DNA of 64,000 nt from Clostridiales bacterium (GTDB taxonomy: Bacteria; Bacillota; Clostridia; Lachnospirales; Lachnospiraceae). Below, one piece after another: positions 35,077 to 53,547 of this stretch. A program made the translations under genes and the position numbers. Under the pieces are notes generated by a model. That model worked only from the letters and a program-made list of their open reading frames with translations. It was not told the origin of the DNA and made no database searches. Every line of letters begins with the position of its first letter. The first letter of the stretch is position 1. Location of the stretch: assembly GCA_021199255.1 (NCBI GenBank), contig JAJQIK010000081.1, positions 248,001 through 312,000 on the forward strand, in the 5' to 3' direction.

Positions 35077-35671
35077 GATTTTATTCTTATGCGTAGGAGT
35101 ATGAAGATTAATTTTATTTATTCTTTTAAGAGATGTGGGGGGGGTAAACGCTCCCACTTATCTCAGCGTGACAAGAGCCTTTTATGAAAGGGGAGGGGAA
35201 TTTGGTTTGCGATGGGACGGGGTCGACCTTTTTGGAAGAAGTTGCAAGTGATAGAAAACTTGATAAGAGACCTAAACATATAGAAAAATATTGACATTGA
35301 CACAGATATGGGAGCAGTATTGTAAACCATACCAATAGGTTCATTTTTGTAAAATAGATGTAGAAGGCTTTGAAAAGGAAATATTAATGGGATGCGATTT
35401 CAATATAGTTAGACCGTGGATATTTGTGGTTGAGGTGACGAAAACTGGGACATCAATTCTTTCTCATGAAGGATGGGAAACTATCTTGATAGATCATGGA
35501 TATATATTGGGATATAACAAAGGAATTGATCGTTATTATGTAGATCCTAGGAGAGAGTATTTGCTGGATTATTTTGAAAATACAGATAAATTTATAACAG
35601 AAAATGAAATTGTTCGCATGTCAATGATAAAAGGATGGACACAAATATGGGAAATGCAAAACAAAAAATAA
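35073..35671 (+). pseudogene. FkbM-family methyltransferase, broken
   Basis: Pieces of an FkbM protein lie in order but in different frames. RFYSYA then a TAG where Gln is expected then EYED; a frameshift; LILFILLRDVGG-like, then PTYLSVTRAFYERG; a jump with missing sequence to VCDGTGSTFLEEVASDR; and another break to LTQIWEQYCKPYQ, a TAG, and KIDVEGFEKEILMGCD. The last open part, 35387-35671, encodes only the C-terminal 94 residues. A G8 run lies at 35137-35144. The start would be TTG 35073, overlapping the previous stop. Several independent lesions make reversible phase variation unlikely as a full explanation. Confidence 0.8.
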
Positions 35672-36651
35672 TTGTTTGGGGAATAGGACATAATTATTTG
35701 CAAAATAAGAAACAGATAGAGAACCAGTTTGAAATTATTGGATATACAGATAATAAGTTTGAAAATCAGGATATTTTAGGTGAAAAAGAAATCCGACCAA
35801 AGGATATTTATTTATATTCATATGACATAATATTGGTGACATCTTATAAATACTTTGATTCTATTAGATTACAATTATATAAATATGGATTAGATATGGC
35901 CAGAGTAAAAAACCTGGACATATTAGAAAGAGAATGTAATGAAGAATTGAAACAAGTTGTATGTGATATAGAGGAGTACGAAAGACTTAATTTGAACCCT
36001 TCTTTTTCGATCAATTTAAATGACTTGAAATTGATGACAAGCGATAAAAAGATGGCAGCGGGAGTACCTGCCGCTCATTATTTTGCTCAGGATATTTGGG
36101 GGGGAGCAAAAATATATAGAAATAATCCAATAAAACATTATGATATAGGATCAAGGTTAGACGGGTTTATAGCCCATTTATTGGTTTTCAGAGAAGTTAA
36201 CTATATAGATATACGTCCGTTGCCTTTTAAAATTCCAAGATTACATTTTATACAGGGTGACGCAACAAATCTAGAGGGATTTGAAAATAATTCTATAGAA
36301 TCGCTATCATCATTTCATGCGATTGAACATTTTGGCTTGGGAAGATATGGGGATGAAGTTGATCCGGATGCGTATTTAAAGGTTATTAGTAACATACAGC
36401 GTGTAATAAAGCCGGGCGGGCATGCTTATATTGGAGTCCCGATTGGTCCAAAAGATAAATTGGTTTTTAACGCGCATAGAATTTTTGCAATTCGAACAAT
36501 ACTTGAATTGTTTGATGAAATGAAATTGCAGGATATAGCAGTTGTAAAATCGACCAGTGCGTATGCAGAGAAAATTGTAGAAGAGCAATACCACTTGGTG
36601 GAGGATTACAGTTGTGGATTGTTTGAATTTATAAAAAATAGTAAGTACTAA
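35647..36651 (+). CDS. Rossmann-like module fused to DUF268-type methyltransferase-like domain
   Basis: About 334 residues. ATG 35647 is chosen as the methionine just before the conserved core; ATG 35635 is possible but lies directly on the AAGG. Residues about 5-95 form the island's recurring small Rossmann-like module (KIIVWGIGHNY, DIILVTSYKYF). The C-terminal domain (about 120-330) resembles DUF268/SAM methyltransferases: YDIGSRLDGFIAHLL, FIQGDATNLEGF, LSSFHAIEHFGLGRYGDEVD and VIKPGGHAYIGVPIG. It probably modifies a sugar nucleotide or glycan. A G7 run occurs at 36098-36104. AT-rich. Confidence 0.72.
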   Translation: MGNAKQKIIVWGIGHNYLQNKKQIENQFEIIGYTDNKFENQDILGEKEIRPKDIYLYSYDIILVTSYKYFDSIRLQLYKYGLDMARVKNLDILERECNEELKQVVCDIEEYERLNLNPSFSINLNDLKLMTSDKKMAAGVPAAHYFAQDIWGGAKIYRNNPIKHYDIGSRLDGFIAHLLVFREVNYIDIRPLPFKIPRLHFIQGDATNLEGFENNSIESLSSFHAIEHFGLGRYGDEVDPDAYLKVISNIQRVIKPGGHAYIGVPIGPKDKLVFNAHRIFAIRTILELFDEMKLQDIAVVKSTSAYAEKIVEEQYHLVEDYSCGLFEFIKNSKY

Positions 36652-36685
36652 AGTATATGGGTATTATATGGGAGGAAACAGGAGT

Positions 36686-37633
36686 ATGAAGGTTCTTGTG
36701 TATGGATTGGGGAGAGAATTTTCACTTTTGAGAGAAGTGATAGAATCTAGTTATGAAGTGATTGCTTATAGTGATATACGTAAAATAAATATTGAAGGAT
36801 ATATTGCGCCCACACAAATTCCCAATATAGATTTTGATGCTATATTTGTTACAAGTGAACGATTTTATAATGAAATTAAAGCATATTTGGAGAAAATACT
36901 GGGGGATAGATTTCTTTGCCTATCAAAAAAGGATTTAATAGGAGTATGTGATAATGTTGTGGCAAGAGATTCTTGGGTTATCTCCAAGCTTTTGGAAATT
37001 GATGAGGGGAAAGTTTTACTGGATGCTGGAGCAGGCGAGGCAAAATATTCTAAATACTGTTCTCATTTAAAATATATAGCGCAGGATTTTGGTGAATATA
37101 AGCCACAACAGTCTGTAGTAGGTTTGCAGTCAGAAAAATGGGTATATCCGAAGAATTATATAAAATGTGACATTGTTGATATGCCGTTGGATAAAGCAAG
37201 TGTGGATGTGGTTTTGTGTACGGAAGTATTTGAACATATTGCGAATCCGGTTATGGCGTTAAAAGAATTTTCTAGAATTATAAAGGTGGGCGGTCAAATG
37301 ATTCTTACCGCACCTTTTGCAAGTTTGGTGCATATGGCACCGCATTATTATAGCAGTGGGTTTAGTAGATATTGGTATGAAAAAAATCTGAATGAGGTTG
37401 GATTTAAGATAGTAGAGATACGACCTTATGGAAATTATTTTTCGTGGCTTGGACAAGAAATAAATAGGTTGCCGAGCATGGCGGAACGGTATTTGGATCA
37501 AGAGATGAGCGACGATGAGCAAAAGACAATTTATAAAACGCTTAACTTATTGAGAAAGTTGGAATTGCAAGAAAATCAATCAGATGAAATATTGTGTTAC
37601 GGATATATGGTAGTTGCGAAAAAAGAAGAGTAA
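36686..37633 (+). CDS. Rossmann-like module fused to SAM methyltransferase
   Basis: About 315 residues from ATG 36686 (AGGAG just upstream). N-terminal module (about 1-85): MKVLVYGLGREFSLLREVIE and DAIFVTSERFYNEI. C-terminal Methyltransf_11-type domain (about 110-250): VLLDAGAGEAKYSKY as the SAM loop, then DIVDMPLDKASVDVVLCTEV, FEHIANP and IIKVGGQMILTAPF. It has the same architecture as the preceding gene but a different methyltransferase class. The substrate is unknown, probably a glycan sugar. Confidence 0.78.
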   Translation: MKVLVYGLGREFSLLREVIESSYEVIAYSDIRKINIEGYIAPTQIPNIDFDAIFVTSERFYNEIKAYLEKILGDRFLCLSKKDLIGVCDNVVARDSWVISKLLEIDEGKVLLDAGAGEAKYSKYCSHLKYIAQDFGEYKPQQSVVGLQSEKWVYPKNYIKCDIVDMPLDKASVDVVLCTEVFEHIANPVMALKEFSRIIKVGGQMILTAPFASLVHMAPHYYSSGFSRYWYEKNLNEVGFKIVEIRPYGNYFSWLGQEINRLPSMAERYLDQEMSDDEQKTIYKTLNLLRKLELQENQSDEILCYGYMVVAKKEE

Positions 37634-37646
37634 GGGAAAATTATTT

Positions 37647-38507
37647 ATGGTAATCATAAAAACCTGTGGTGGATTGGGAAATCAACTGTTTCAATACGCT
37701 GCGGCACTTGAAATTGCAGAAACCTGTCACGATGCAGTCAAATTTGACTTAGAGTTTCAAAAAAAGGATAAAAGAAAATTTGAGTTGAGAAAATTAGGGA
37801 TAAAAGAAAAAATACTATCAGATAAAGAGAAAAAGAGAAAAAAATACATAATACAAAATTTATTGCTGTTAGTTTACAAGCAATATGTGGCATATAGTAT
37901 ATGGGATAATCAAGCCGTGCGATATATATTTGCAAGGTTTGGAGTATTTTTTTGTACTACATATAATCCGGATATACCAAGGATACTCTTCCAGTGTAAA
38001 CATATTTTATTAGCAGGCTCTTTTTCAAATGAAAAATTTTTCTCTAATGTAATTGGTCAAATGCGTAATATAATGAAAACTTATATTGAAAAGAATAAAC
38101 TTGAAATAGAAACTCCAAGTGTCTGCGTACATATCCGTAGAGGGGATTACGTAGGGAACAGACCATATGAAGTATGCACAGAAAATTATTACTATCAGGC
38201 AATGCGTATGATTGAGGATAAGGTGGGGAAAATAGGGTTTCTAATTTTTTCGGATGATATAGACTATGTACGCCATCAGATGAGGTTTGAACAAACGGTT
38301 ACTTTTTGTGAAGAAAAAAGTACATGTAAATCGTTAGGTTATATGGTTCAATGCAGTCATTATGTAATTTCTAACAGTTCATTTAGCTGGTGGGCGCAGA
38401 AGTTAAATGCTTCAGACCAAAAGCTGGTTTATGCACCTAGGCGTTGGTATAACTCAGATAATAATTGTGATTTATATGATAATAGTTGGATTAAAATAGA
38501 GGTGTGA
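37647..38507 (+). CDS. GT11 alpha-1,2-fucosyltransferase-like protein
   Basis: About 286 residues, ATG 37647. GT11 signatures: GGLGNQLFQYAAALEIA at the N-terminus, VHIRRGDYVGN (the HxRRGDY GDP-fucose motif) near 175, and SNSSFSWWAQKLN near the C-terminus. The family adds fucose from GDP-fucose to galactose or related acceptors. No GDP-fucose synthesis genes are visible in the window. It ends at a TGATG overlap with the next gene. Confidence 0.87.
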   Translation: MVIIKTCGGLGNQLFQYAAALEIAETCHDAVKFDLEFQKKDKRKFELRKLGIKEKILSDKEKKRKKYIIQNLLLLVYKQYVAYSIWDNQAVRYIFARFGVFFCTTYNPDIPRILFQCKHILLAGSFSNEKFFSNVIGQMRNIMKTYIEKNKLEIETPSVCVHIRRGDYVGNRPYEVCTENYYYQAMRMIEDKVGKIGFLIFSDDIDYVRHQMRFEQTVTFCEEKSTCKSLGYMVQCSHYVISNSSFSWWAQKLNASDQKLVYAPRRWYNSDNNCDLYDNSWIKIEV

Positions 38508-40039
38508 TGAAGCGGGAGGTAAAGGTTTTGGTAAATTCACTCAAAAAAAGGAATATGCTTTCTGTCTGGGAACTGATAGACGAAATTGATATTTTGGAAA
38601 AATTGATGGCTCAACGAAGGCAAGATAGAAATTTTGAATGCTATTATTTGGATGATTTTGAGAAAAAAGTGAATAGAAGCGACTATATTATTGTGGGAGC
38701 AGGGAAAGATGGTCATGCTATGATTAGGTTACTGAATTTGCTGGATAAAAAAATTAGTGCATGGTGTGATAGTTCATCGGGGAAAATAGGGACTTTAAGT
38801 GAAAAACATATAATTCAATCTACGGAAAAGATACTAGAGTCATATAATGGAGAAATTATTTTGATTGCTTCCAGACAATATGGGTTAGAAATTCTTGAAC
38901 AAATTTTAAATTTTGAAAAAGTTGAAAAAAAGATGATCTTTGATTTTGACAGCATTTATGCGGGGGGCAAGCATAAAAAGGAGTACAAAAGGCAGACTGT
39001 TTTATCTTATCCTCCTTTATGGATGACCATTTGCGTGACTTCCGCATGCCCTAATAAATGTTTGTTTTGTTCTTACCATGGGGAAGCGGCAAATGGTGTG
39101 AGTAATGTGTATGGGTTGCCATATATGCTTTCATATAAGGATTTTTGCAGGATGGTTGATATGGCAAAAGAAGGAGGAGTTCCAAGAATCCATATATGCG
39201 GAACGGGAGAACCTTTTATTAATCCTGAGATATTTAAGATGATTGATTATGTCATTGAACAATATGGGCGAGTTTCGCTACAAACGGACTTCTGGAAAGA
39301 ATTATTTCAGAAAAAGAACTATTTAGATGAAATCATTAAAAGGGAAAGATATATAAGCTATATTGCAACAGATATTCTGTCTTCTGAAGAGAAAGAGCAT
39401 AATAAAATCAAACAGGGTATGACTTATGCAGAGTTACTGGAGGCATTGGAATATTTGGGAGCAAACAGTAACGTACGAATTCGTGCTGTAAATATTTTGA
39501 CCAAAAAAAATTATAAACATTTAAAAGGGATAATTGATGATTTGGATTCTCGAAATGTAAACTTTGAGTTAATGATAACGAATTTGTTGTCGTATGATTA
39601 TTCAGAATTTACTGCATCAAGTAATGTTTATACGTCTGCTGATAAGGAAATAACAAAAATGCTTGAGGATGTGGAAGAGTATGCCAAAGGTAAAGATATA
39701 AAAGTCAGTATTCCCAGGCCGGCTGATGGTGAAGGAGACTGTTTTGTGTTTTGGGACACCTTTCAGACGTGGCCTGTCAGAGGTTGCCAAAAGGAGAGAT
39801 ATGTAGAAAATATGATTCCGCATGCATGTGCAGCAGTTGTTCGAGGCGAACTAAATTCTTTAGGATATTTGTTTGATTATGAAAATATCATGGATGCTTG
39901 GAATAATCCCAAACTTGTAAAAATCAGGGAAGATATGATTAATGGGACGTATCCAAGCGAATGGTGTAGAAATTGTTTTCTATATCACGGACAGGATTCT
40001 TATTTTAACAAAGGACAATCATTATGTGTGGTATCTTAG
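38507..40039 (+). CDS. Radical SAM protein with Rossmann-like N-terminal module and SPASM-like C-terminus
   Basis: About 510 residues from ATG 38507, overlapping the fucosyltransferase stop by one base. Residues about 45-155 are the recurring Rossmann-like module (YIIVGAGKDGHAMIRLLN, GEIILIASRQYG). The radical SAM core begins near 165; TSACPNKCLFCSYHG holds the CxxxCxxC [4Fe-4S] site, followed by HICGTGEPFINPE (GGEP-like) and RIRAVNILTKKNYKHLKG. The C-terminal GCQKERY, HACAAVVRGELNS and EWCRNCF provide cysteines in a SPASM/twitch-like pattern for a further cluster. The target is unknown; a glycan, an amino-acid component of it, or a protein is conceivable. Confidence 0.8.
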   Translation: MKREVKVLVNSLKKRNMLSVWELIDEIDILEKLMAQRRQDRNFECYYLDDFEKKVNRSDYIIVGAGKDGHAMIRLLNLLDKKISAWCDSSSGKIGTLSEKHIIQSTEKILESYNGEIILIASRQYGLEILEQILNFEKVEKKMIFDFDSIYAGGKHKKEYKRQTVLSYPPLWMTICVTSACPNKCLFCSYHGEAANGVSNVYGLPYMLSYKDFCRMVDMAKEGGVPRIHICGTGEPFINPEIFKMIDYVIEQYGRVSLQTDFWKELFQKKNYLDEIIKRERYISYIATDILSSEEKEHNKIKQGMTYAELLEALEYLGANSNVRIRAVNILTKKNYKHLKGIIDDLDSRNVNFELMITNLLSYDYSEFTASSNVYTSADKEITKMLEDVEEYAKGKDIKVSIPRPADGEGDCFVFWDTFQTWPVRGCQKERYVENMIPHACAAVVRGELNSLGYLFDYENIMDAWNNPKLVKIREDMINGTYPSEWCRNCFLYHGQDSYFNKGQSLCVVS

Positions 40040-41739
40040 GTGGAAATAATAAAGAATGGAATTATCAAAGCGCAATTACGTGCATGACGCATAGAGGACC
40101 AGATGGGCAGAAAATATGCGGCTTTTATGACTTTATATTTGCGTTTGCCAGATTGGCTGTTGTTGATTTAAGCAAAGAGGCGATGCAGCCAATGAACTCG
40201 GAAGATGGAAGATATGCAATTATATTTAATGGTGAAATCTATGATTATGTGTATGTGAGAAGAGAATTAAGCAGAAAAGGATACCGCTTAAAGACGAAGT
40301 CTGACACAGAAGTGTTACTTTATGCCTTTATAGAATGGCGAGAAAAAGTGGTTGATTATATTGATGGGATTTTTGCATTTGCGGTATATGATCAGTTAGA
40401 GCACAGGGTGTATTTGTTCCGAGACAGATGTGGAATAAAACCGATTTATTATTATTATGATGGGAAAAATTTTGCGTTTGCTTCAGAAATAAAGGCTTTT
40501 CAGTGTTTGGGGTCTTCTTTACGCCTGACGTTAGATCGGACTGCACTTTATGATTACCATACATATCTTTATATTCCAGAACCAAAGAGTATGTATAATG
40601 AAGTGAAAAAACTACCGGCGGCAAGCTACCTTGTTTTTGATACTACATCCAGTCAAATAGTTGGGATACATAAGTACTGGAAAGTGCATTTAAATATGCA
40701 GGAGGGAAAAGTATTATCTGAAAGAGAACTGAACGAAAAAGCGGGTGAGCTGCATTTTCATTTGAATAATGCGGTGAAACGACAGTTAGTAGCTGATGTT
40801 CCTGTTGGTACGTTTTTAAGCGGAGGAGTAGATTCAAGTATTATTACAGCAGCAGTAAAGGAGAACATGAATTGTGTAACGGCGTATTCCATAGGATTCC
40901 CCGATAGAAGATATGATGAGTCATCTTATGCAAAAAAAGCAGCAGATATGCTAAATATAAAGTTGAAAATACAGCGTTTTGAGAATGGCGATTTGATAGA
41001 ATTGTATGACCAGATTGTTCGGTGGTATGATGAACCTTTTGCAGATACATCTGCATATCCTACTTATATGGTCTCAAAGTTTGCGAAAGAAGATGTGACG
41101 GTAGTGCTCACAGGGGATGGGGGAGATGAATTATTTGGGGGATATTCAAGATGCATAACCTGTAAAAACGATTTACAGAAAAATGAGTTTACAAATAAAA
41201 AAATTTCTATGTTTTATTTGAATTATTTAAAGGAATGTAAAATTTTAGGAAACACATTAGATAATTTCCTTGAAGAGGATCTCGCTATTTTGATGCCCCG
41301 ATATTTATATCCTGTATTGCCAGATAGAAAACGATTAAGGGAAAAGTATAACATATCTAAAGATTATGATGATTTTTGGTATTATAGGAAATATTATCAT
41401 AAAGATTTACCACCTTATACCAGAATGCGTTATCTGGATTTTATGACATATATGAATGGAGATATATTGGCAAAAGTGGATAGAACTTCAATGGCGGTTT
41501 CCTTAGAAGCGAGAGTCCCTTTTTTAGATAGGGAAGTTATTGAATTTGCTTTTTCTTTAACACAGAATGCATGTAATCCGGGTGGTGAATTAAAAGGTTT
41601 GCTGAAACGGGCATATGCGGATTTGTTTCCAAAAAAGTTTTTTGATAGAAAAAAGCAGGGATTCAGTATGCCGTTTTCATATTTACGAAGACAGATAAGC
41701 CCACAGGAATACTTAATTGAAGATTTGTGGAAAATGTAG
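40024..41739 (+). CDS. asnB: Asparagine synthetase B-type amidotransferase
   Basis: 571 residues, ATG 40024 overlapping the previous gene by 16 bases. N-terminal class II glutaminase with Cys2 in MCGILGG, THRGPDG and NGEIYDY. C-terminal ATP-pyrophosphatase domain with LSGGVDSSI near 265 and TGDGGDELFGGYSR. The family amidates aspartate; copies in polysaccharide loci often amidate sugar acids or amino-acid decorations instead. AT-rich and between glycan genes, so a glycan role is inferred. Confidence 0.85.
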   Translation: MCGILGGNNKEWNYQSAITCMTHRGPDGQKICGFYDFIFAFARLAVVDLSKEAMQPMNSEDGRYAIIFNGEIYDYVYVRRELSRKGYRLKTKSDTEVLLYAFIEWREKVVDYIDGIFAFAVYDQLEHRVYLFRDRCGIKPIYYYYDGKNFAFASEIKAFQCLGSSLRLTLDRTALYDYHTYLYIPEPKSMYNEVKKLPAASYLVFDTTSSQIVGIHKYWKVHLNMQEGKVLSERELNEKAGELHFHLNNAVKRQLVADVPVGTFLSGGVDSSIITAAVKENMNCVTAYSIGFPDRRYDESSYAKKAADMLNIKLKIQRFENGDLIELYDQIVRWYDEPFADTSAYPTYMVSKFAKEDVTVVLTGDGGDELFGGYSRCITCKNDLQKNEFTNKKISMFYLNYLKECKILGNTLDNFLEEDLAILMPRYLYPVLPDRKRLREKYNISKDYDDFWYYRKYYHKDLPPYTRMRYLDFMTYMNGDILAKVDRTSMAVSLEARVPFLDREVIEFAFSLTQNACNPGGELKGLLKRAYADLFPKKFFDRKKQGFSMPFSYLRRQISPQEYLIEDLWKM

Positions 41740-41758
41740 GTGTGGCAAGGAGATAAAC

Positions 41759-42688
41759 GTGAAAGGTAGTTTAATTACGGTATTAATGTCTGTATATAAT
41801 GAAGAAAATAATATTGATGAATCAATTCAAAGTATTTTAGCTCAAACCTATGAAAATTTTGAATTTATTATTATTGATGATGCCTCCACGGATCACACGG
41901 TCGAAAAAATACTGAATTACAAGGACAAGAGGATTGTTTTTATTCGAAATGAGGTTAATTGTGGATTGACAAAGAACCTAAACTATGGGTTGAAAATTGC
42001 AAAAGGAAAATATGTCTTAAGAATGGATGGAGATGACATATCACTTCCTGAACGGTTTGAGAAGCAGGTTGAATTTATGGAAAGGAATCCGAGAATTGCC
42101 TTGTCGGGAAGTGGTATGAAAAGATTTGGTGAATGTAATAAATCATTGAGACCGACTGTAGATAAGGAATTGCTAAAAATAAATTTGATTTTTAATAGTG
42201 TAATCGCCCATCCTACCGTGATTGTTCGAAAAGACTTTATTGACATGCATGAGATTCAATACGATGAGAATCTACAATATGCGCAGGATTATATGTTTGT
42301 TTATCAGGTATCTCAGAAAGGCGATATTGCAAATATGCCGATTATATTACTTAAGTATCGCACTCATAAAGAGCAGATTTCATTGGGAAAGGCGGATGTG
42401 CAATTAAGATGTGCAAATGTAACGAGAAAGAGAATCTTAAAAGATTTAGGTATCGGATTAAATGATACGGCGTTTCAATTATGGTGTGATTTTTGTACAG
42501 GAAATAAAAGAAAACTTTCGTTTCGCGATATAGTTACACTTCAGCGAATAATAAAATTATTTATTCAGAAAAATCAAAGAATGAGATCATATAATGGACA
42601 GAAACTGAAGGAACAGTTGAAATCCAGAACAAAGGATTATTATAGAGATAACGCCAGAATAGCAAAATGGCTATATATTGCTAAGTGA
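41759..42688 (+). CDS. GT2 family glycosyltransferase
   Basis: About 309 residues from GTG 41759, with AAGGAG six bases before; this is better supported than the upstream in-frame ATG inside the previous gene. GT-A fold: ITVLMSVYNEENNIDESIQS, IIIDDASTDHTVEKI, GKYVLRMDGDDISLPERF (DxD-type metal site), and IAHPTVIVRKDF. The donor and acceptor are unknown. No module is fused here. Confidence 0.88.
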   Translation: MKGSLITVLMSVYNEENNIDESIQSILAQTYENFEFIIIDDASTDHTVEKILNYKDKRIVFIRNEVNCGLTKNLNYGLKIAKGKYVLRMDGDDISLPERFEKQVEFMERNPRIALSGSGMKRFGECNKSLRPTVDKELLKINLIFNSVIAHPTVIVRKDFIDMHEIQYDENLQYAQDYMFVYQVSQKGDIANMPIILLKYRTHKEQISLGKADVQLRCANVTRKRILKDLGIGLNDTAFQLWCDFCTGNKRKLSFRDIVTLQRIIKLFIQKNQRMRSYNGQKLKEQLKSRTKDYYRDNARIAKWLYIAK

Positions 42689-42698
42689 GGTAAGGAAG

Positions 42699-44090
42699 AT
42701 GCTCTGCATAGATGCTATTGTACCAGTATATAATGTTGAATTGTATTTAAGGGAATGTATAGACAGTTTACTTAATCAGACGGTGCCATTTCACAGAATT
42801 ATTTTGATTAATGATGGTTCTATAGATAGTAGCAGAGAAATATGCGAAGAGTATTGTATAAAATATAATTTCATTGAATTGGTTAATCAAACGAATCATG
42901 GTCTGGGATTTGCAAGAAATGTCGGGATAAATCATTCAGAGGCTGATTATCTTGTTTTTGTTGATTCAGATGACTTTGTCTCTGCTGATATGGTGGAAAA
43001 ACTTCTGTGCAAATTGAATCAAGAGCAAATTGATGTTTTAATTTATAATGCTAGAGAACAGTATGATATGGCAATAGATCAAAAGGCCGGTTACTTTAAA
43101 CATTCATCGTTTTTGAATGGAAAAACGATGAATGGTAAGCAATATATTAAAACGGTGTTTCCGAGAAATTATATTGTTTCAGCATGCATTGCAGCATATA
43201 AGAGAAACTTTCTTTTGGAGAACAATATTCTTTTCCCAGAGGAATTATTTCATGAAGATTATTTCTTTTATTTGCAGGTTTGGTTCAATGCAAAGAAAAT
43301 CCAATGTATGGAAGAATTTCTTTATGTCAGAAGATATAGGCCAAATTCTATTACTACGACACTGCTTTCTAGAAAACGAAGTCAGGACTTAGTGGATGGC
43401 AAAGTGTTGGAATGGAATTATATCAAGCAAAGAGAAGAAGAGATAGAGAGTGATATAGTAAGGCTGTTTGTTTTGCGGGAGACGGCGAAGATTCTTAATA
43501 TACTCAACGATGAAAGTGATCCGCAATGGGGTATGGTTGAGCAGTTATTAGAGTGGTTTGGGAAATTTTGGGTGCGATTTTTGGATGAGGATTTGTCATG
43601 GAGTGAGAGCTATTTCGCATTGCAAATCGTTTATAAAGTGAAGTCTTGTCCTGAAACTGTAGTATATCAAAAAATAGATATACATACAGCGATACAAAAG
43701 TATAGAAGGAATTTAGAGATTGGTATAAAAAACAAAATAGTACGATTATCAGCTTATAAGGGTAAAGTGGGTGTGTATGGAATAGGGGCACATACAGAAC
43801 TATTGTTAGAATTGTATAGAAAATATGTAGGTGAATTATCTGAGGAGATATTTTTTGTTGTAAGCACACAAATTGAAAATAAAAAATATTTTAATAGAGA
43901 AATCATTACATATGATCAACTGACAGATGATATTGATTATATTATTGTTTCCAGCTTGGTCTATCAGGAAGAAATGGTTACTAATTTGTCAAAGGTGGGA
44001 ATTTCAAATCAAAAGATCGTCACATTGTATGATGAAAATGAGGCATACGACATAACTCATATGTATCGTATGTTAGTAGAAAATGAATAA
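42699..44090 (+). CDS. GT2 glycosyltransferase with C-terminal Rossmann-like module
   Basis: About 463 residues from ATG 42699 (AAGGA upstream). N-terminal GT-A domain: CIDAIVPVYNVELYLRECID, NDGSIDSSREICEEY, GLGFARNVGINHS and FVDSDDFVSADM. After a helical region the C-terminus (about 355-455) is the recurring module: KGKVGVYGIGAHTELLLELY, TYDQLTDDIDYIIVSSLVYQ. It is the last gene of the AT-rich section. Confidence 0.85.
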   Translation: MLCIDAIVPVYNVELYLRECIDSLLNQTVPFHRIILINDGSIDSSREICEEYCIKYNFIELVNQTNHGLGFARNVGINHSEADYLVFVDSDDFVSADMVEKLLCKLNQEQIDVLIYNAREQYDMAIDQKAGYFKHSSFLNGKTMNGKQYIKTVFPRNYIVSACIAAYKRNFLLENNILFPEELFHEDYFFYLQVWFNAKKIQCMEEFLYVRRYRPNSITTTLLSRKRSQDLVDGKVLEWNYIKQREEEIESDIVRLFVLRETAKILNILNDESDPQWGMVEQLLEWFGKFWVRFLDEDLSWSESYFALQIVYKVKSCPETVVYQKIDIHTAIQKYRRNLEIGIKNKIVRLSAYKGKVGVYGIGAHTELLLELYRKYVGELSEEIFFVVSTQIENKKYFNREIITYDQLTDDIDYIIVSSLVYQEEMVTNLSKVGISNQKIVTLYDENEAYDITHMYRMLVENE

Positions 44091-44192: not shown

Positions 44193-45206
44193 ATGAAACG
44201 TGATCAAGTAGTATATATACCTTGTCAGATAAGAGCGGACAGAATCAATGAATACACCTCAAATATGATAGGAATTCTGCAAGAAAGATATAAGGTAACA
44301 GGCGTGTTAGCGGAGCCTGCTAATATTTTGCAGATGATGCAGACAAAGGCAGTGTTTTTAAACTGGGTGGAAGATGACCTGGATTTAAAAATGAAATTGC
44401 AGTTGCTTCTGCATAAAGCGGCAGGCGTGAAGATCATATGGGTATTTCATAATAAATATCCCCATGACAGGGAATACAGTGAGCGGATTGTAAGTAACAT
44501 GAGGTGGTTAGCGGATCATAGCAGCGTGGTTATGCTTCATTCCGAAAATAGCAGGCGCTTTATTCCGAATAGGAATAAAAATAGCAGAAAAGCAAAGTAT
44601 ATACCACATGTTTTGTTTAATAAGCATAATCAGTCAGGAGAAGAGAATAAGGTCAGGGAGCATTATGGAGTCAAGGAAACGGATTTCCTTTTTACCATAT
44701 TTGGCGCGGTGAAACCGTATAAGAACATAGAAGCAGCGATTGACGCTTTTCAGAAACTACATCTGGAGGGAGCAAAACTACTGATCGCTGGGAAATCTGC
44801 GGATCATGCATATGCATTGGAAATTGAGGAAAGGTGCAGGCAAGACAACAATATTATTCTTGACTTGCATTTTATTCAGGCAAGATTGTTGGAGCAGATC
44901 ATTGAAGCATCGGATGTGATTGTTATGCCGTATAAGGATGTAAGCAGTATGAATTCCAGAGTAATGATTCATTCCTTTTCTTTGGGGCGGACGGTGATCT
45001 CGCCAGATATTTGTATGGCAAGAGATTTTAAATCGAAGGGGTTTTTATACGTATATAAAAGTTCGTTAGAAAGGGCTATGAAGAAAGCGTATATGGACGG
45101 ATGTGCGGTTTGTCGTATGATGGGCGAAGAAGCCCGAAAATATATGAAACAATATCACAGTGAAACGATTGTTAAAAGAAACGTTATGGATATGCTGGAA
45201 AAATAA
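44193..45206 (+). CDS. GT-B glycosyltransferase (GT4-like)
   Basis: 337 residues, ATG 44193. C-terminal nucleotide-sugar half is clear: TDFLFTIFGAVKPYKNIEAA near 165, GAKLLIAGKSADHAYAL, IIEASDVIVMPYKDVSSMNS and SFSLGRTVISPDIC. The N-terminal half has VFHNKYPHDREYSERIV. The usual EX7E is less clear. Base composition returns toward that of the flanks here, so the gene probably belongs to the older island backbone. Confidence 0.8.
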   Translation: MKRDQVVYIPCQIRADRINEYTSNMIGILQERYKVTGVLAEPANILQMMQTKAVFLNWVEDDLDLKMKLQLLLHKAAGVKIIWVFHNKYPHDREYSERIVSNMRWLADHSSVVMLHSENSRRFIPNRNKNSRKAKYIPHVLFNKHNQSGEENKVREHYGVKETDFLFTIFGAVKPYKNIEAAIDAFQKLHLEGAKLLIAGKSADHAYALEIEERCRQDNNIILDLHFIQARLLEQIIEASDVIVMPYKDVSSMNSRVMIHSFSLGRTVISPDICMARDFKSKGFLYVYKSSLERAMKKAYMDGCAVCRMMGEEARKYMKQYHSETIVKRNVMDMLEK

Positions 45207-45224
45207 AAACAGGAGGCGCAAAGC

Positions 45225-45701
45225 ATGAAAAAGGGGTTCGTAGGAGTATTATCATTATTGGCAGGAGTTGCCGTAGGAGCGGCAGGAGTGGGTAAAGTTA
45301 CCGGTGATAGGACTCAGGAGGTGCAGGAACTTTCCGATAAACACTTGGGACTTTTCCTGATGATGAATCAATGGGTGAAGGTAAAACAGGAGGGTAAAAA
45401 TCTATCATCTTATTTTAAGAAAAATGGGTATAGCCGAATTGCGGTTTATGGAATGAGCTACGCAGGAGAGACATTGGTGGAGGAATTGAAAAACAGTGGC
45501 ATTACCATTGCCTATGGCATAGATCAGAAAGCGGATTCTATTTATGCAGACGTAGAGATTGTTTCGGCAGACGGCGATCTGGAAGAGGTAGATGCGGTTG
45601 TGGTAACAGCGATTACCTTTTTTGACGAGATAGAGGAGAAGCTTTCTGCTAAGATAGAATGTCCGATTCTTTCACTGGAAGACATTCTATATGAAATGTA
45701 A
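45225..45701 (+). CDS. Membrane-anchored stand-alone Rossmann-like module protein
   Basis: 158 residues from ATG 45225 (GGAGG upstream), 18 bases after the glycosyltransferase. An N-terminal hydrophobic, Gly/Ala-rich segment (about 4-24) is a signal anchor or short membrane helix. A short helical linker (about 35-60) leads to the island's recurring module (about 62-158): YSRIAVYGMSYAGETLVEEL, IAYGIDQKA, VDAVVVTAITFFDEIEEKL. There is no enzyme domain. It could be a scaffold or sensor for the fused enzymes. No name or family can be given with certainty. Confidence 0.7.
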   Translation: MKKGFVGVLSLLAGVAVGAAGVGKVTGDRTQEVQELSDKHLGLFLMMNQWVKVKQEGKNLSSYFKKNGYSRIAVYGMSYAGETLVEELKNSGITIAYGIDQKADSIYADVEIVSADGDLEEVDAVVVTAITFFDEIEEKLSAKIECPILSLEDILYEM

Positions 45702-45740
45702 TGACATGAATCTTTATTATCTTATATCAGGAAAAGCTTC

Positions 45741-45769
45741 TTGACAAACCGTGTACCTTCTGCTATATT
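45741..45769 (+). promoter_or_regulatory. Sigma-A promoter before the Rpn-like nuclease gene
   Basis: TTGACA (45741-45746), a 17-base spacer and TATATT (45764-45769). It implies a leader of about 250 bases before ATG 46024. Confidence 0.75.
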
Positions 45770-46023
45770 AAATTTATCAATTTTCCGTGAATATCTATTT
45801 CCCTTTACCGGAGCGGATTTGTCTGGCGGTAAGGAGATTCGTATCGGCGTCTCGCCGGAAATTCACAGAATGTAAATTTAATGCAAAGCAGGAGCGGGAA
45901 GCTTTTATGGTACAGATGCGGTTTCCTGGCAGGTATGTTTTCTGGATATTACCCGGAATCGGCCGGGGCATATACTGCTGGAAGCTGAATACATGGTTCC
46001 TGACCCTGCGGGAAGGAGAAGGT

Positions 46024-47082: not shown

Positions 47083-47084
47083 TG

Positions 47085-47131
47085 CATAATCCCGATATAA
47101 GATATTGATTTGTATCGGGATTATGTTTTTT
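47085..47131 (+). terminator. Intrinsic terminator after the Rpn-like gene
   Basis: Perfect 13-bp arms CATAATCCCGATA (47085-47097) and TATCGGGATTATG (47113-47125), followed by six T. Confidence 0.9.
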
Positions 47132-47179
47132 GTAACATAGAAGATCATGCTGTAAAAGCATGGAAGGGTAGAACGGTGA

Positions 47180-48709
47180 ATGGACAAGGGCATTGACAAT
47201 CAGCATATTATATTGGATGAGAAGGGATTAGTGGAAAAACTGCATCAATCTTCCGCAATTTTTATTTATGGCGCCGGCATACGCGGGAAACGAATGTTAT
47301 ATTATCTTAAGTGGAAGGGTTTTAGCGCGGAGGCATTCCTTGTGACAGCGCTTGATAATCCATATTCTGTAGACGGGGTTCCCGTCTGGAAGTTTGAGGA
47401 TGCCATTGCCCGTTATGATGATTATATGATTATCGTGGCCTGTGATAAGAGAAGCTGGCTGGATATTATCCGTACGATAGAGAAGAAAGATGTATATGAT
47501 TATTTGCTTGTAGAGGAAGGACTCTATCTTCAAATACGCAAATATGCCTATGATTATATTGCTAGTACGTGGTCAACTCAGAAACAGGAATTACAGGATC
47601 GCAGGGTGAGGATAGGTTACCTGTCTCCGGGCTATCTGGACACAACATATGCAGAAGAGAGATTGATTATCAATAAATTAAAGTCTGATGTTGCGGAATA
47701 TGTGGCATTGCCTAAGGAACTGGGAGCGGATGCGCAAGCAGATAGCTATTACGAACCGCGTTTGTATATACCGAATGTAGATGTCATACATACCTTCAAT
47801 ACAGTTTGTGTTACAGATGTCTTATGGTGTGCCAGCTTTGAGACTAATTTGCCTAGAATTTTCGATTTGAAGGGAAAGAACAGGGAAACTTTTGAGCGGC
47901 TGATAGATTGTATTCTAAAGAATAACTGTTTGGGGCTTTTTCCGCTTTGCCAGAACGCATATGAAATCCAGAAGTCCTTTTTGCTGGAAAACGCAGAAGA
48001 TGTAGCAAAGGAAATTTTGTGTAAAACAGAGGCGCTGCATCCGCCTCAGCCGATACTGCTTTCTCAGGAAGAGGAGGAGGAAAAATGTAGCAGAGAGCGG
48101 GAAGAGCTTGTTTTTATTTTTATAGGTAATTGTTTCTTTATTAAGGGCGGCAGGGAAATAATTAATGCCTTGTCGTATTTTGAGGGAAAGTTCCCGTTTA
48201 GGCTTATTTTGATTAGTTCCTTTTTATATGATGATTTTTTCACTCATACAGCCTATGACGAAATGCTTTTGTATAAGAAAATAGTGCAGGAAAAACCGTG
48301 GATAGAATATTATAATGGGCTGCCGAATGAAAAGGTACTGAAAAAATGCAAGGAGGCTGATGTTGGATTGCTACCGTCTTTTGCAGATACCTATGGCTAT
48401 TCCGTATTGGAAATGCAGGCGGGAGGCTGTCCGGTTATTACCACTAATATCAGGGCGTTGCCGGAGCTGAACGACGGCTGCGGCTGGATGTGTGAATTGC
48501 CTGTGGATGCCAATCAGTGTTGTCAGAGATTGGATATGAATGAATTGAGCAGCCTGTTGGAAAAGCAGTTAATCAATTGTTTTCAACAGATATTTGAGCA
48601 GCCGGAAATTATTTTGGATAGGAGAAGGGCTTCTTTGGCAAGAATCAGGCGGATGCATGATCCGGACGTTTATGCCCGAAGACTGTCTGAATGGATATTG
48701 CAGAAATAA
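47180..48709 (+). CDS. Rossmann-like module fused to GT4-like glycosyltransferase
   Basis: 509 residues from ATG 47180. Residues about 15-120 are the recurring module (SSAIFIYGAGIRGKRMLYYL, DDYMIIVACDKRSW). The rest is a GT-B glycosyltransferase: RVRIGYLSPGYLDTTYAEER, LVFIFIGNCFFIKGGREIIN near 310, GLPNEKVLKKCKEADVGLLP and FADTYGYSVLEMQAGGCPVI with the donor-binding Glu. The donor is unknown. It restarts the glycan genes after the nuclease terminator, so it probably has its own promoter in 47132-47179; none is clear. Confidence 0.8.
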   Translation: MDKGIDNQHIILDEKGLVEKLHQSSAIFIYGAGIRGKRMLYYLKWKGFSAEAFLVTALDNPYSVDGVPVWKFEDAIARYDDYMIIVACDKRSWLDIIRTIEKKDVYDYLLVEEGLYLQIRKYAYDYIASTWSTQKQELQDRRVRIGYLSPGYLDTTYAEERLIINKLKSDVAEYVALPKELGADAQADSYYEPRLYIPNVDVIHTFNTVCVTDVLWCASFETNLPRIFDLKGKNRETFERLIDCILKNNCLGLFPLCQNAYEIQKSFLLENAEDVAKEILCKTEALHPPQPILLSQEEEEEKCSREREELVFIFIGNCFFIKGGREIINALSYFEGKFPFRLILISSFLYDDFFTHTAYDEMLLYKKIVQEKPWIEYYNGLPNEKVLKKCKEADVGLLPSFADTYGYSVLEMQAGGCPVITTNIRALPELNDGCGWMCELPVDANQCCQRLDMNELSSLLEKQLINCFQQIFEQPEIILDRRRASLARIRRMHDPDVYARRLSEWILQK

Positions 48710-48736
48710 ATCAGGAAAGTATATGGAGCGAAAGGT

Positions 48737-50038
48737 ATGAAAGGAAAAATATCGGTGATTATTCCGGTTTATAATTGTGCCCCCTATCTGCATGAATGTC
48801 TGGACAGTGTTTTGGCGCAGACGATACAGGAAATGGAAGTTATATGTATCGATGATGGGTCGACAGATGGTTCAGATATCATACTGAAGGAATATTGCGG
48901 GCTCGACAAGCGGTTGAGGGTGTTCCACCAGTCTAATCAAGGCGCCGGCGTAGCCAGAAATATGGGAATAGAGAAGGCGGAAGGCGACTTTTTGATTTTT
49001 TTGGATGGAGATGATTATTATCTGAATCGGGATAGTCTGGATAAGATGTATCATACATGTATTCAAAATGATGTAAAAATTTGCGGAACTGCAATTATGC
49101 ATCTTCAGAATGGTAAGCTCTCGCAGGATTATTTTACCCGGAATATTTGGACAATTTCAGCTCAGAAAAAAGTAATGCGGTATCAGGATTTTCAGATTGA
49201 TTATGGATATCAGGGATTTTTAATCAACAGAGAATTAATCCTTGCCCATAATATCAGATTCCCCAATTACAGGAGATTTCAGGATCCGCCTTTTTTTGTC
49301 AGGGCAATGTTTGCCTCTGGAAGCTTTAGCTTTATACAGGATTATCTATACTGCTACAGAGTTCCCGCTGTGACGGCCAGGTTTAATGGAGAGAAGGTGG
49401 CGGATTTATTGAAAGGTCTTCGGGATAATATTGAGTTTGCCATAGAACATGATTTAGACAAACTCCTTGAGATATCTTTGATGAGACTGGAATATGAGTA
49501 TGATAGCATTATATGTCATTATACCATGCCGGACGACTGTAAAATAATAGATTTATTATGGGAAATCAATGATACAATTACGGGTTTCATGAAAAGAGGA
49601 CGACGGGCGGGGAACTATCTTTTGCGTCCACTGAAGTTTCTGCTGGAGGGAGACAGGGACAGGCTTGAACATTATGAGGATTATTTGTGTGATGAAATTC
49701 GTAACAGGGACGAAATCTGTCTTTATGGGGCAGGTGAGATGGCGAGGCGTTTTATCTGGTTTTTAAAACAAACAAAATTGTCAGAGAAGGTAAAAAAGAT
49801 TATTGTTACAGATACTGATGGGAAGCGGCAGTCTCTAGAGGGAATTGAAATCATGTCTTTAGAAGAGTTCTCTCAGAGTGAAGCCCGCGATATGAGAATC
49901 TATACGGCGGTGGGGCCAGTGCTGCAAAAGGACGTGCTGGAGAATTTACAGCATTACGGCTATTTCAATGTGGAACTTCTGGATGGGATTTTTCTGGATA
50001 AGCTGGCGGCATTTTCCACAGGAACGGCAAACGGGTAA
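48737..50038 (+). CDS. GT2 glycosyltransferase with C-terminal Rossmann-like module
   Basis: 433 residues, ATG 48737. N-terminal GT-A domain: KISVIIPVYNCAPYLHECLD, CIDDGSTDGSDIILKEY, GAGVARNMGIEKAEGDFLIF and LDGDDYY. C-terminal module (about 325-425): RDEICLYGAGEMARRFIWFL, KKIIVTDTDGKRQSLEGIEI and DMRIYTAVGPVLQ. Same layout as the gene at 42699 but not AT-rich. Only two bases separate it from the next gene. Confidence 0.85.
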   Translation: MKGKISVIIPVYNCAPYLHECLDSVLAQTIQEMEVICIDDGSTDGSDIILKEYCGLDKRLRVFHQSNQGAGVARNMGIEKAEGDFLIFLDGDDYYLNRDSLDKMYHTCIQNDVKICGTAIMHLQNGKLSQDYFTRNIWTISAQKKVMRYQDFQIDYGYQGFLINRELILAHNIRFPNYRRFQDPPFFVRAMFASGSFSFIQDYLYCYRVPAVTARFNGEKVADLLKGLRDNIEFAIEHDLDKLLEISLMRLEYEYDSIICHYTMPDDCKIIDLLWEINDTITGFMKRGRRAGNYLLRPLKFLLEGDRDRLEHYEDYLCDEIRNRDEICLYGAGEMARRFIWFLKQTKLSEKVKKIIVTDTDGKRQSLEGIEIMSLEEFSQSEARDMRIYTAVGPVLQKDVLENLQHYGYFNVELLDGIFLDKLAAFSTGTANG

Positions 50039-50040
50039 AT

Positions 50041-51222
50041 ATGAATCGGGCAATCAATTATCAGGAAACAGAACAACAATTAAATAAGCTTTTGCAGGAA
50101 CTGCGGCAATATGATCAACTGTATCTCTATGGCGCGGGCAATCGCGCCAGAGCAATTTTGCAGATGTGTAAAAAGAACTTTTTGACGAATTTATCCCTTA
50201 AGGGATTTATCATAACCAGCACGCAGGGAAACAGGGAATATTCAGACGCTCCGACGGCGCTGGATGGCCGGCCTGTAGTATCGGTGTCGGAATATTATGA
50301 CAGGGAAGAGGCAGGCTTTGAACAGGCGGCAGTGCTTGTTACGGTAATGGAGCATTATCATGAGGAGATTCGGCGGGAGCTTGTGCGTACGCCGTTTCGG
50401 CATATTTATTATTTAACAGATGCGATGGAACGGCTTTTGACAGATGGATATGTGGAGCAGCGGTTTAAGCAGTTGGAGCTGCCCTATGCTTTCACGGGAC
50501 GCGCTTCTGAGGATCGCTATGGGAGTGAGAAGGCGAAGAGGCTTGTGCGGGTATTTCGTGTACAGAGTGCCGCGGATGTGTCGCTGACACAAGAACTTCC
50601 GGAAGCTTCTTATGTTGTGCCCATTCAGGCAGGCGTAAGGCTGACAGGGTCGAGAATCTGTGATGTGACGGACGGGGATGGAATGAATATTTCTGAACAA
50701 AATTCTTATTATAATGAACTGTCCTGTTTATATTGGCTGTGGAAAAATACGGATTACCCATATTCCGGGATTTGCCACTACCGCAGGATGTTTGAATCAG
50801 ATATTGCACTGCGGCCGATTATGGAGGGCAAAGCGGATGTGATTCTTCCTTCCCCAACGGTGGTCTGGCCGGATTTACAGGGTTATTACCTGGGCTGGGG
50901 ATTGCGAGCGTATTATGAGGAGATGCTTTCTGTAATCGAGCAGCAATTCCCAGAATATTATGATACGGCGCTCTGGTGTGCGGAAAATGAAATTTTTATT
51001 CCGAATAATATCTGTATTGCCTCCCGGAAAGAATTAGAGCGTTATTGCAGCTTCCTGTTTGGAGTCGTATTCGAGGTTGAGGAGCGGATGCGCGCGAAGG
51101 AAGGACCGAAGCAGAAACGCTGCTGGCTTTCGGAGCATGTGTCTACGGTCTATTTTATTCATTGCCTGAAACATTCCGAAACCGGTAAAATATATTTTTC
51201 GGATATTGTGCGTTATTGGTAA
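50041..51222 (+). CDS. Rossmann-like module fused to DUF4422 domain, copy 1
   Basis: 393 residues, ATG 50041. Module at about 15-135 (YDQLYLYGAGNRARAILQMC, AAVLVTVMEHYHEEI). DUF4422 at about 175-390: SYVVPIQAGVRLTGSRICDV, NISEQNSYYNELSCLYWLWK, YSGICHYRRMF, DVILPSPTVVWPDLQGYYLG, and FIPNNICIASRKELERYCSF. DUF4422 proteins occur in capsule and exopolysaccharide clusters and are presumed glycosyltransferases. A second copy lies at 52462. Confidence 0.8.
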   Translation: MNRAINYQETEQQLNKLLQELRQYDQLYLYGAGNRARAILQMCKKNFLTNLSLKGFIITSTQGNREYSDAPTALDGRPVVSVSEYYDREEAGFEQAAVLVTVMEHYHEEIRRELVRTPFRHIYYLTDAMERLLTDGYVEQRFKQLELPYAFTGRASEDRYGSEKAKRLVRVFRVQSAADVSLTQELPEASYVVPIQAGVRLTGSRICDVTDGDGMNISEQNSYYNELSCLYWLWKNTDYPYSGICHYRRMFESDIALRPIMEGKADVILPSPTVVWPDLQGYYLGWGLRAYYEEMLSVIEQQFPEYYDTALWCAENEIFIPNNICIASRKELERYCSFLFGVVFEVEERMRAKEGPKQKRCWLSEHVSTVYFIHCLKHSETGKIYFSDIVRYW

Positions 51223-51262
51223 GTTTGTTTGGAGGAAAGGGACTTTTTGAGGGGGTTAAAGT

Positions 51263-52429
51263 GTGTACGAGGACGTAGAGATTAAGCGGCTGAAAAAGGA
51301 AAAATCAGTCTGGATATATGGTATTGGAAGATTAGGAAAAAAGTTGTGTTCCATTTTTGAGGCATGTGATATTGCTATAGAAGGGATTATAGTATCTGAT
51401 TCCAAACAGAATCCCCTAAGATATGGAGGAATGAAAGTCTATTCCCTGGATGCCTGTGCCGCTCCGAAGGATGCACTGATTATCATAGCGGTAAATAGAC
51501 GGGCTGCGGTGGAAGTGGCGGAGCATTTATCTCAAAGAGGTTATGGGAGGTTTGTGATCTGGAGTGAAGCCTGTCTGTCTGCATTTTGGAAAAGTTATCC
51601 ACATCTATTTGTTGATCGGAGAAAAGGAAAGGATAAGGTACTATTTGTACTGAGCGGTTATAAATTGTATTTATGGGATAGTGTTTTCTCCAGATTAAAA
51701 AGATTTCTTCCTGATGATGTGGAGGTATGTCTATGTTCATCGGGAATATATGATGATACGCTTGCTGCGATTGCGGCGGAAAATGTCTGGTCTTATTTGA
51801 GTACTTCACAAAATAGCGTCACTTTGATTCAGAATATCGCTTACGCAATTTATGAGGACTGTACGTGGATTTATAAAATGGACGAGGATATTTTTCTTAC
51901 AAACAATACTCTTTCAAGGCTGTATGAGGCCTATGTGAGGGAGGAAATAAATTCCTCATACCGTATTGGGGTGATGGCACCGGTTATTCCATTAAATCAG
52001 TCCTGTTATCGGTTGGTGCTTGAAAAGTATCATTGTCTTCAGGATTTTGAAGAAAGATACGGCAGGGCATTATGGGGCGGGCTTAGTATTTCTGCGCCTG
52101 ATGTCGCGTTGTATTTATGGGGAAAATACGGAAATATTCCCGGAATTGATCAAATAGCATCTGATTTCCGGGAACCTGTAATATCTCTCTGCTCGACAAG
52201 GTATAACATAGGCTTGATTTTGATCAAAAGAACTCTTTGGAGCAATATGTCAGGGTTTACGACAAGCGCCAGCCCGGATATGGGATTAGATGAGGAAGAG
52301 CTTGATGCGTATTGCGTAAATTCTTCCAGAGTGATCATGATTGCTCATGATGCGGTAGCGGGGCACTTTGCCTTTGGCCCACAGTCATATGGTATGCGGG
52401 AGTACATGAAAGTGTCTGGTTGGGCGTGA
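51263..52429 (+). CDS. Rossmann-like module fused to a putative GT-A glycosyltransferase
   Basis: 388 residues from GTG 51263 (GGGGG upstream). Module at about 10-115 (KSVWIYGIGRLGKKLCSIFE, DALIIIAVNRRAA). The second half is unfamiliar but contains CTWIYKMDEDIFLTNNTLSR, where DED could be a GT-A metal motif, and ISAPDVALYLWGKYGNIPGI. The ending (AHDAVAGHFAFGPQ) lacks a known signature. Glycosyltransferase is inferred from this motif and its position between DUF4422 genes. Confidence 0.62.
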   Translation: MYEDVEIKRLKKEKSVWIYGIGRLGKKLCSIFEACDIAIEGIIVSDSKQNPLRYGGMKVYSLDACAAPKDALIIIAVNRRAAVEVAEHLSQRGYGRFVIWSEACLSAFWKSYPHLFVDRRKGKDKVLFVLSGYKLYLWDSVFSRLKRFLPDDVEVCLCSSGIYDDTLAAIAAENVWSYLSTSQNSVTLIQNIAYAIYEDCTWIYKMDEDIFLTNNTLSRLYEAYVREEINSSYRIGVMAPVIPLNQSCYRLVLEKYHCLQDFEERYGRALWGGLSISAPDVALYLWGKYGNIPGIDQIASDFREPVISLCSTRYNIGLILIKRTLWSNMSGFTTSASPDMGLDEEELDAYCVNSSRVIMIAHDAVAGHFAFGPQSYGMREYMKVSGWA

Positions 52430-52461
52430 ACTGTTTAAGGGGTTCAGAGGGGTATAAGATC

Positions 52462-53547
52462 ATGAATAGTAGGAACTTTATTTACGGCGCGGGTATTGTC
52501 GCAGCCAGTATTTATACGGCCATGAAGGCCTTGTATCATTTCAGTCCGGCCGCCTTTCTGGTATCCGATTCGGCGGGCAATCCGGAGCGGATAGATGGCG
52601 TCCCGGTCAGACTGTTATCAGACATAGCGGATTTTGGCCTGGCGGATCGCATTTATATTGCGACGCCGGAGGAACATCATGGGACGATTGTTTCAATGCT
52701 GGCTGAGCGGGGGATTGCGCAGGAGCAGATTGTTTTAGCGGATAATCAATTTGAGAATCATTTGCTGGAGGAATATTACCGAAGCCTGCCGGGGTTTACC
52801 ACAGCGGCTGAACTTTTAGCAGGGGATCATGGGGAAAATATTGCAAAGTTGCAGGATATTCAGGTGTTTCAGGCAAAATGCCATGTGGATAAGTCGTTGA
52901 AGAAGGAGACGCCGATTCCGGCATATGTGCTTCCGATTCAGGTCGGCGCTGTTTTTGAGGATCAAAGAATTGCGCGGCTACAGGATAATACGGGGGAAAA
53001 TATTTCAGAGAAAAATCGCAATTATTGCGAATTGACGGCTGGATATTATGCATGGAAAAACAGCAAAGCCGCTTATAAAGGTTTATGCCATTACCGGCGG
53101 ATCTTTGACCTTGACGAGCGGCAGATGGAGGCCTTATTGGAACGGCGGCAGGAATGGGATGTCGTCATACCCTACCCCTCCGTTCAGTATCCGGATATTT
53201 CAGCGCAGCATGGACGATATTTAAAGGAGGCAGACTGGCAGGCTATGCTGGAAGCGCTGCGGCAGACGGCGCCGGAGTATCTGGAAGCCTATGAGCAGGC
53301 TGTAAATAAGGGAGAGCGGTATTTCCTGAATTTTAATATGCTCATTGCCAGAGCTGAGGTTTTTGACGAGTATTGCGAGTTTTTGTTTCGCGTCCTCGGC
53401 AGGGCGGAGGAACTGGTTTCCCCCAGAGGCTGGGAGCGCGCAGACCGTTTCGCGGGCTATATGGGGGAAAATCTGACTACGATCTATTTTCTTGCCAACA
53501 GAGATAGGCTTAAGATCGTCTGCTCCGGGAAGCTGTGGCTGACATAG
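52462..53547 (+). CDS. Rossmann-like module fused to DUF4422 domain, copy 2
   Basis: About 361 residues; ATG 52462 follows AGAGGGG and avoids overlap with the previous gene. Module at about 3-110 (SRNFIYGAGIVAASIYTAMK, ADRIYIATPEEHHG). DUF4422 domain at about 150-360: AYVLPIQVGAVFEDQRIARL, ENISEKNRNYCELTAGYYAW, YKGLCHYRRIFDLDERQ and DVVIPYPSVQYPDISAQHGR. Paralogous to the gene at 50041. Confidence 0.8.
   Translation: MNSRNFIYGAGIVAASIYTAMKALYHFSPAAFLVSDSAGNPERIDGVPVRLLSDIADFGLADRIYIATPEEHHGTIVSMLAERGIAQEQIVLADNQFENHLLEEYYRSLPGFTTAAELLAGDHGENIAKLQDIQVFQAKCHVDKSLKKETPIPAYVLPIQVGAVFEDQRIARLQDNTGENISEKNRNYCELTAGYYAWKNSKAAYKGLCHYRRIFDLDERQMEALLERRQEWDVVIPYPSVQYPDISAQHGRYLKEADWQAMLEALRQTAPEYLEAYEQAVNKGERYFLNFNMLIARAEVFDEYCEFLFRVLGRAEELVSPRGWERADRFAGYMGENLTTIYFLANRDRLKIVCSGKLWLT

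Follow-up and report, generated by a model that had tools for sequence, protein, structure and literature searches.

A Rossmann-like module shared by ten genes of a Lachnospiraceae glycan island: its enzyme partners, distribution and possible role in recruitment

Background

Among the closest described systems for the protein domain treated here are PglD-type enzymes, whose N-terminal domain holds UDP through residues that include a Ser and two Asp (PMC8040287), the C-terminal domain of sugar C-methyltransferases such as TcaB9 and KijD1 (PF08484), the C2185-like_N domain (PF22674) and, by arrangement only, the Alg13-Alg14 and EpsE-EpsF pairs, in the first of which Alg14 is termed a membrane anchor (PMC4973528). 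Here we describe a small Rossmann-like domain, called the module below, which is present in ten genes of one glycan island on contig JAJQIK010000081.1 (assembly GCA_021199255.1, positions 248,001 to 312,000) of a Clostridiales bacterium of the family Lachnospiraceae. This whole stretch of 64,000 nucleotides is referred to as the window, and all positions are given on it.

The ten copies are members of one family, which is grafted onto many unlike enzymes in this and other genomes. They are best read, tentatively and at rather less than even chances, as a single Rossmann-like adapter domain (PglD_N, C2185_N or CoA-binding-like) that would recruit enzymes in place of direct membrane binding, through contacts from module to module or from module to partner. 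If this reading is right, it would account for the way in which soluble enzymes are brought to the growing chain of complex surface glycans in gut Lachnospiraceae, and for the ability of glycan islands to exchange enzymes and yet stay ordered. In that case several hundred proteins with the module, in which this additional domain mostly has no assignment in Pfam, would also gain a common name and a test.

Detection and unity of the module family

Genes were called as the longest non-overlapping open reading frames (ORFs), uncurated. Five separate seeds, iterated by profile search over 1292 genes, converged on nearly the same set of about 590 genes, and the single family of about 95 residues so obtained takes in all ten segments of the window; of 603 genes, the 15 that drew less than four of the five seed votes were left out of the core set, and the E-values of this iteration carry no correction for selection. 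The profile matches in the window are exactly the ten genes which a preliminary description of the sequence had named, with 0 of the 46 other window genes and 0 of 1292 reversed decoys matched. That description had spoken of one module used about ten times with differing partners, and both points are borne out by the profiles: GT2, GT4-like and DUF4422 proteins, methyltransferases, a radical SAM enzyme and an enzyme-free copy share one domain, in a pattern broader than was first reported. The domain has a strand-helix-strand unit with a glycine-rich loop after strand 1, followed by further strands and helices, which places it in the Rossmann-like superfamily.

It was considered whether the segments are unrelated Rossmann look-alikes joined by a short motif. 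Pairwise alignment of the ten copies makes just two subgroups plain and leaves genes 38504 and 42678 weak, both being recovered by profile, and the module profiles reach Rex and CapD-like proteins as well. The convergence of the five seeds, the unmatched decoys, the lack of epimerases among the genes matched by the five-seed profiles and a main topology which is alike in the predicted structures of two unlike module proteins all oppose this explanation, which is largely refuted and very improbable.

Enzyme partners and the side of attachment

Across 72 loci the module was located N-terminally in 265 copies and C-terminally in 198, with 108 copies in proteins of less than 200 residues (7 of them cut by locus ends) and 17 placed otherwise. 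The partners in 95 randomly taken module proteins of at least 200 residues were GT2 (17), FkbM (12), Methyltransf_11 (9), RgpF (7), radical SAM (6), GT1-type (5), DUF4422 (4), DUF268 (4) and others. The side of attachment is fixed for each family, being C-terminal in GT2 (91/92) and RgpF (13/13) and N-terminal in FkbM (42/43), DUF4422 (18/19) and DUF268 (16/16), and the fusions are therefore probably old and were gathered by the island.

Old fusions of this kind would also suit a plain structural appendage, in which families such as GT2 (C-terminally) and FkbM (N-terminally) each gained the same fold for stability or homo-oligomerisation and the island merely gathers them; the GT2 enzymes TarS and TarP carry C-terminal trimerisation domains. 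The weak similarity of modules within a locus and the occurrence of module clusters elsewhere in the phylum point the same way. This third-placed explanation, quite unlikely in our estimate, leaves unexplained the recurrence of a copy that has no enzyme but a hydrophobic N-terminus of its own, the co-occurrence of that copy with high module counts and the charge pattern, which are described below.

The module is carried by 204 of 309 glycan-acting enzymes overall (GT2 92/131, FkbM 43/44, RgpF 13/13) and by 204 of 287 inside module spans, and by none of the precursor-making enzymes tested, namely IspD, TarJ, SDR, RuP-epimerase, DegT, CapD, Glf and nucleotidyltransferases (0/87 overall, 0/30 inside module spans). 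With module-less seeds it was found on 89 of 121 GT2, 10 of 42 GT4, 2 of 26 GT11 and 0 of 12 AsnB proteins, and ten further loci gave 20 of 27 for GT2 (module-less seed), 0 of 6 for SDR, 0 of 7 for DegT and 0 of 5 for CapD.

Nucleotide-binding signature

In 486 aligned enzyme copies the GxG motif is present in 417 and an Asp after strand 2 in 354, with both in 304, so that the signature is incomplete in 182 of these copies, as it is in 81 of the 108 copies in short proteins. Both elements occur in the window only in M1, M2 and M3 (numbered as in Table 1), M4 and M6 to M10 being without the Asp at this place and M5 having GxS. The main rival to the adapter takes the module as a ligand-binding domain, each copy of which would bind a nucleotide or a nucleotide-linked sugar (UDP, CDP or NAD type) in the manner of PglD and would position or regulate its enzyme. 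It draws on the copies with GxG and Asp, on the UDP held by the PglD-type domain (PMC8040287, as above) and on 3nkl, Rex and VioB, which are among the solved sequences closest to the module. The frequent loss of the signature, the absence of the module from all 87 precursor enzymes and the unlike substrates of its partners (GT, SAM and radical SAM enzymes) count against such a role, which we consider rather improbable; the nucleotide-sugar sensor proposed in the preliminary description thus fits badly.

Charge of enzymes with and without the module

The C-terminal tails of module-less GT2 proteins are basic (median +7 per 80 residues; n=34, after 5 of 39 proteins cut by locus ends were dropped), versus a median of 0 for the 80 residues that precede the module in the others (n=91; p 2e-9). 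The charge of whole proteins is +8 in module-less GT2s versus -9 in GT2s with the module. GT4 proteins have -11 with it (n=10) versus +4 without it (n=28), and the direction is the same in GT11 (-2 with, n=2, versus +11.5 without). Ten further loci, with 7 module-less and 21 module GT2s, agree more weakly (p 0.013 for tails, p 0.047 for whole proteins). Basic tails fit peripheral membrane binding, and from the contrast in GT2 we infer that the module may replace direct membrane binding by protein-borne recruitment.

The stand-alone protein 45225

The enzyme-free copy M5 makes up the C-terminal part of the stand-alone protein 45225, in which a single long helix is predicted at residues 4-55. 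Its relatives (73 aligned sequences) are strongly conserved, including W50, Q55, Y75, G76, G81 and D100, the conservation of the helix being inflated in the collected set because most sequences were gathered by patterns within that helix; an uncharged stretch of 15-28 residues is present in 72 of the 73. The helix with its module also terminates longer proteins (45 matches), although two of these are the stand-alone with a start further upstream (L047) and a fusion to a hydrolase-like protein (L083). Foldseek found nothing at E<=0.001 for 45225, and a sequence search of the PDB with the stand-alone profile was uninformative (best E 0.017). One copy had been called membrane-anchored, which is likely, but the charges on the flanks of the hydrophobic stretch leave the topology ambiguous; the hydrophobic N-terminus itself recurs in relatives.

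Distribution across islands and genomes

A second island in the source genome (C54) holds eight more copies, one in a stand-alone protein 62% identical to 45225 and seven in further module genes, and 16 of the 17 module matches of the whole genome at E<=1e-8 lie within the two islands, the remaining one being CapD-like. The 70 loci around stand-alone relatives, which were gathered with sequence patterns inside the conserved helix of the stand-alone, have a median of 7 module-bearing enzymes each. The stand-alone profile has a match in a frame of 100-199 residues in 9 of 149 other genomes from the family (the match of G041, in a 65-residue frame, was counted as absent), and six or more further module matches were found in 8 of the 9 genomes with a short stand-alone versus 15 of the 140 without one (p 8e-7; medians 7 versus 2). 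Locus L110, outside the family, has two stand-alone copies, one of them with a hydrophobic N-terminus. The largest number of module matches in the 150 genomes searched is in G111 (23 at E<=1e-5), several of them in frames with an internal stop.

Proposed role of the module

A recruitment adapter would work as follows. Attached in a fixed place to enzymes that act directly on the growing surface glycan, the module would replace the charge-driven direct membrane binding of these acidic and soluble proteins; contact between modules, or between a module and a partner, would gather them where chain assembly takes place. In loci that have it, the stand-alone protein (here 45225), which combines a hydrophobic N-terminus with a long helix, may be the membrane hub, and in loci without it the modules may bind one another or some different partner. 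In a further extension this would be a plug-in recruitment system, having a small anchored hub and one adapter grafted on many enzyme families, so that surface-sugar enzymes could be added to or removed from a single assembly line at the membrane and still stay acidic and soluble; this fuller picture is rather unlikely.

Several observations weigh against the adapter or its hub. With regard to the hub, nine of ten additional module-rich loci, which carry 5-9 modules apiece, have no stand-alone copy (L102-L106 among the ten being chosen from genomes without a stand-alone match), and the hub is therefore not required for module use; the 15 module-rich genomes of the 140 without a short stand-alone copy are a second such case. 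In L083 (9113-10423) the helix and module are fused C-terminally to a protein which by eye is hydrolase-like, with no other module within 10 kb. The N-terminal segment is found in 68 of 89 full-length short copies by a simple hydropathy rule, and the flank charge of +3 (amine counted) before the hydrophobic stretch and +1.5 after it does not favour a cytosolic C-terminus, so that a signal-anchor or a signal peptide is possible for the stand-alone. With regard to the adapter itself, module similarity is 44.3 within a locus versus 43.0 between loci when only pairs with non-homologous partners (blastp E>1e-3) are taken, which 5 of 1000 label shuffles reach, and no locus-specific docking code is visible in this difference. 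Several of the glycan-acting seeds were selected for carrying the module. The charge test was conceived after the tails had been seen and after the membrane-segment comparison of GT2; in the ten further loci 2 of 7 module-less GT2 tails are negative and the whole-protein medians are -1 versus -9, and the few module-less DUF4422, DUF268 and FkbM proteins (2, 2 and 1) are acidic as well. Module enzymes are only weakly poorer in membrane segments of their own (30/478, versus 39/295 without the module), and such segments were rejected as an alternative to the module, the difference being absent for GT2 (6/92 with the module versus 0/39 without). Finally, the 304 of 486 copies with both GxG and Asp keep a ligand role alive.

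The earlier proposal of a shared adapter that could assemble the enzymes on one scaffold is thus upheld in part. The enzyme classes which carry the module and the charge pattern give indirect support to an adapter, but a single scaffold through 45225 does not stand as a general rule, given the nine of ten extra loci without a stand-alone copy, part of which were picked for lacking one.

Genes of the island and its surroundings

Table 1. Positions of the module copies, the stand-alone N-terminal part and module-less enzymes in the window
Feature	Position	Strand	Description
M1	35641..35949	+	N-terminal in gene 35635-36651 (DUF268/Methyltransf_11)
M2	36668..36991	+	N-terminal in gene 36668-37633 (Methyltransf_11)
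GT11 glycosyltransferase	37614..38507	+	no module
M3	38654..38983	+	N-terminal part of gene 38504-40039 (radical SAM); profile match, not clear pairwise
AsnB-like amidotransferase	40024..41739	+	no module
GT2	41717..42688	+	no module
M4	43743..44066	+	C-terminal in gene 42678-44090 (GT2)
GT4-type glycosyltransferase	44193..45206	+	no module
Stand-alone N-terminal part	45225..45407	+	hydrophobic Gly/Ala-rich stretch, then conserved helix (LFLMMNQWVKVKQEGK)
M5	45408..45698	+	stand-alone protein 45225-45701, without enzyme domain
M6	47228..47560	+	N-terminal in gene 47180-48709 (GT4-like)
M7	49685..50029	+	C-terminal in gene 48737-50038 (GT2)
M8	50089..50463	+	N-terminal in gene 50041-51222 (DUF4422)
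M9	51278..51610	+	N-terminal in gene 51263-52429 (enzyme part of no clear Pfam family)
M10	52447..52776	+	N-terminal in gene 52420-53547 (DUF4422)

The GC content between 34000 and 54000 is 33-35% at 34-44 kb and rises to 49% by 54 kb, the surroundings having about 50%, and the two module groups lie largely on opposite sides of this step, on account of which the island looks composite. Beside the island, at 30919-32335 and 32497-35076, there are two tandem IspD-family cytidylyltransferases and a weakly TagF-like protein (E 0.003, below the cut-off). An IspD homologue and a TagF-like gene are present in the second island too (L026 3156-7132), where an alcohol dehydrogenase and a ribulose-phosphate epimerase were also identified by eye, and together these genes suggest a polymer containing a CDP-polyol unit (ribitol or glycerol phosphate).

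Between the module genes, at 45787-47082, lies a 431-residue ORF which has a tandem repeat of the VTKEVTDQ type, reaches the cut-off of no Pfam family and resembles PD-(D/E)XK transposase-family proteins. On the minus strand, 55201-57357 holds two GT2 genes side by side, which have TPR repeats at the C-terminus and no module, and 61105-62409 holds a FliD-like flagellar cap gene (FliD_C 1.8e-9). Flagellin glycosylation as the purpose of the island is not supported, as no homologue of flagellin or FliD was found in the 70 loci at E 1e-5 with one flagellin and the FliD of the window as queries; the three flagellin matches of the source genome are on contigs other than that of the window.

Comparison with known systems

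A literature search, with most subscription papers outside its reach, turned up no paper recognisable as treating this module or an adapter common to the enzymes of such islands, and for C2185 it returned only apparently unrelated uses of the string; a table in PMC4000134 covers CA_C2186-2199, not C2185. None of the ten window modules is above the Pfam cut-offs, and a fold search with a full GT2 chain gave GT2-type chains and nothing on its module. For PF08484 (Methyltransf_14) gene 38504 reached just E 0.096 and 12.9 bits, versus a cut-off of 23.5.

The likeness to PglD N-terminal domains which the preliminary description had noticed holds for the wider family, where 15 of 70 diverse module copies touch PF17836 (PglD_N) at E<0.1 (best 4e-5); the ten window proteins have no match to it up to E 1. 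Both are small domains with a glycine loop and an Asp after strand 2. The domain of PglD, however, belongs to a UDP-sugar acetyltransferase with a beta-helix domain (PMC8040287), whereas the module is attached to unlike enzymes and often misses the acid. PF22674 is touched by 12 of the 70 copies at E<0.1, with some relatives elsewhere being strong (2e-17), and in the window it reaches E 0.097 for 35635 and 0.4 for 36668, below its 27-bit cut-off, and nothing for the other eight. The module has the same fold as the N-terminal domain of 2g6t, a Clostridium acetobutylicum structure which we infer from its organism and names to be the C2185 protein, and C2185-like_N covers only part of the module family. 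The module is one branch of a known fold, and its coverage by Pfam is only partial.

By arrangement, the use proposed here is like that of Alg13-Alg14 and EpsE-EpsF, where a membrane-anchored partner is complexed with a soluble sugar transferase. The two parts of those pairs correspond to the halves of MurG and serve a single enzyme, whereas the module is one add-on domain on complete enzymes of many kinds, and its proposed use would be a new variation on such known recruiter arrangements.

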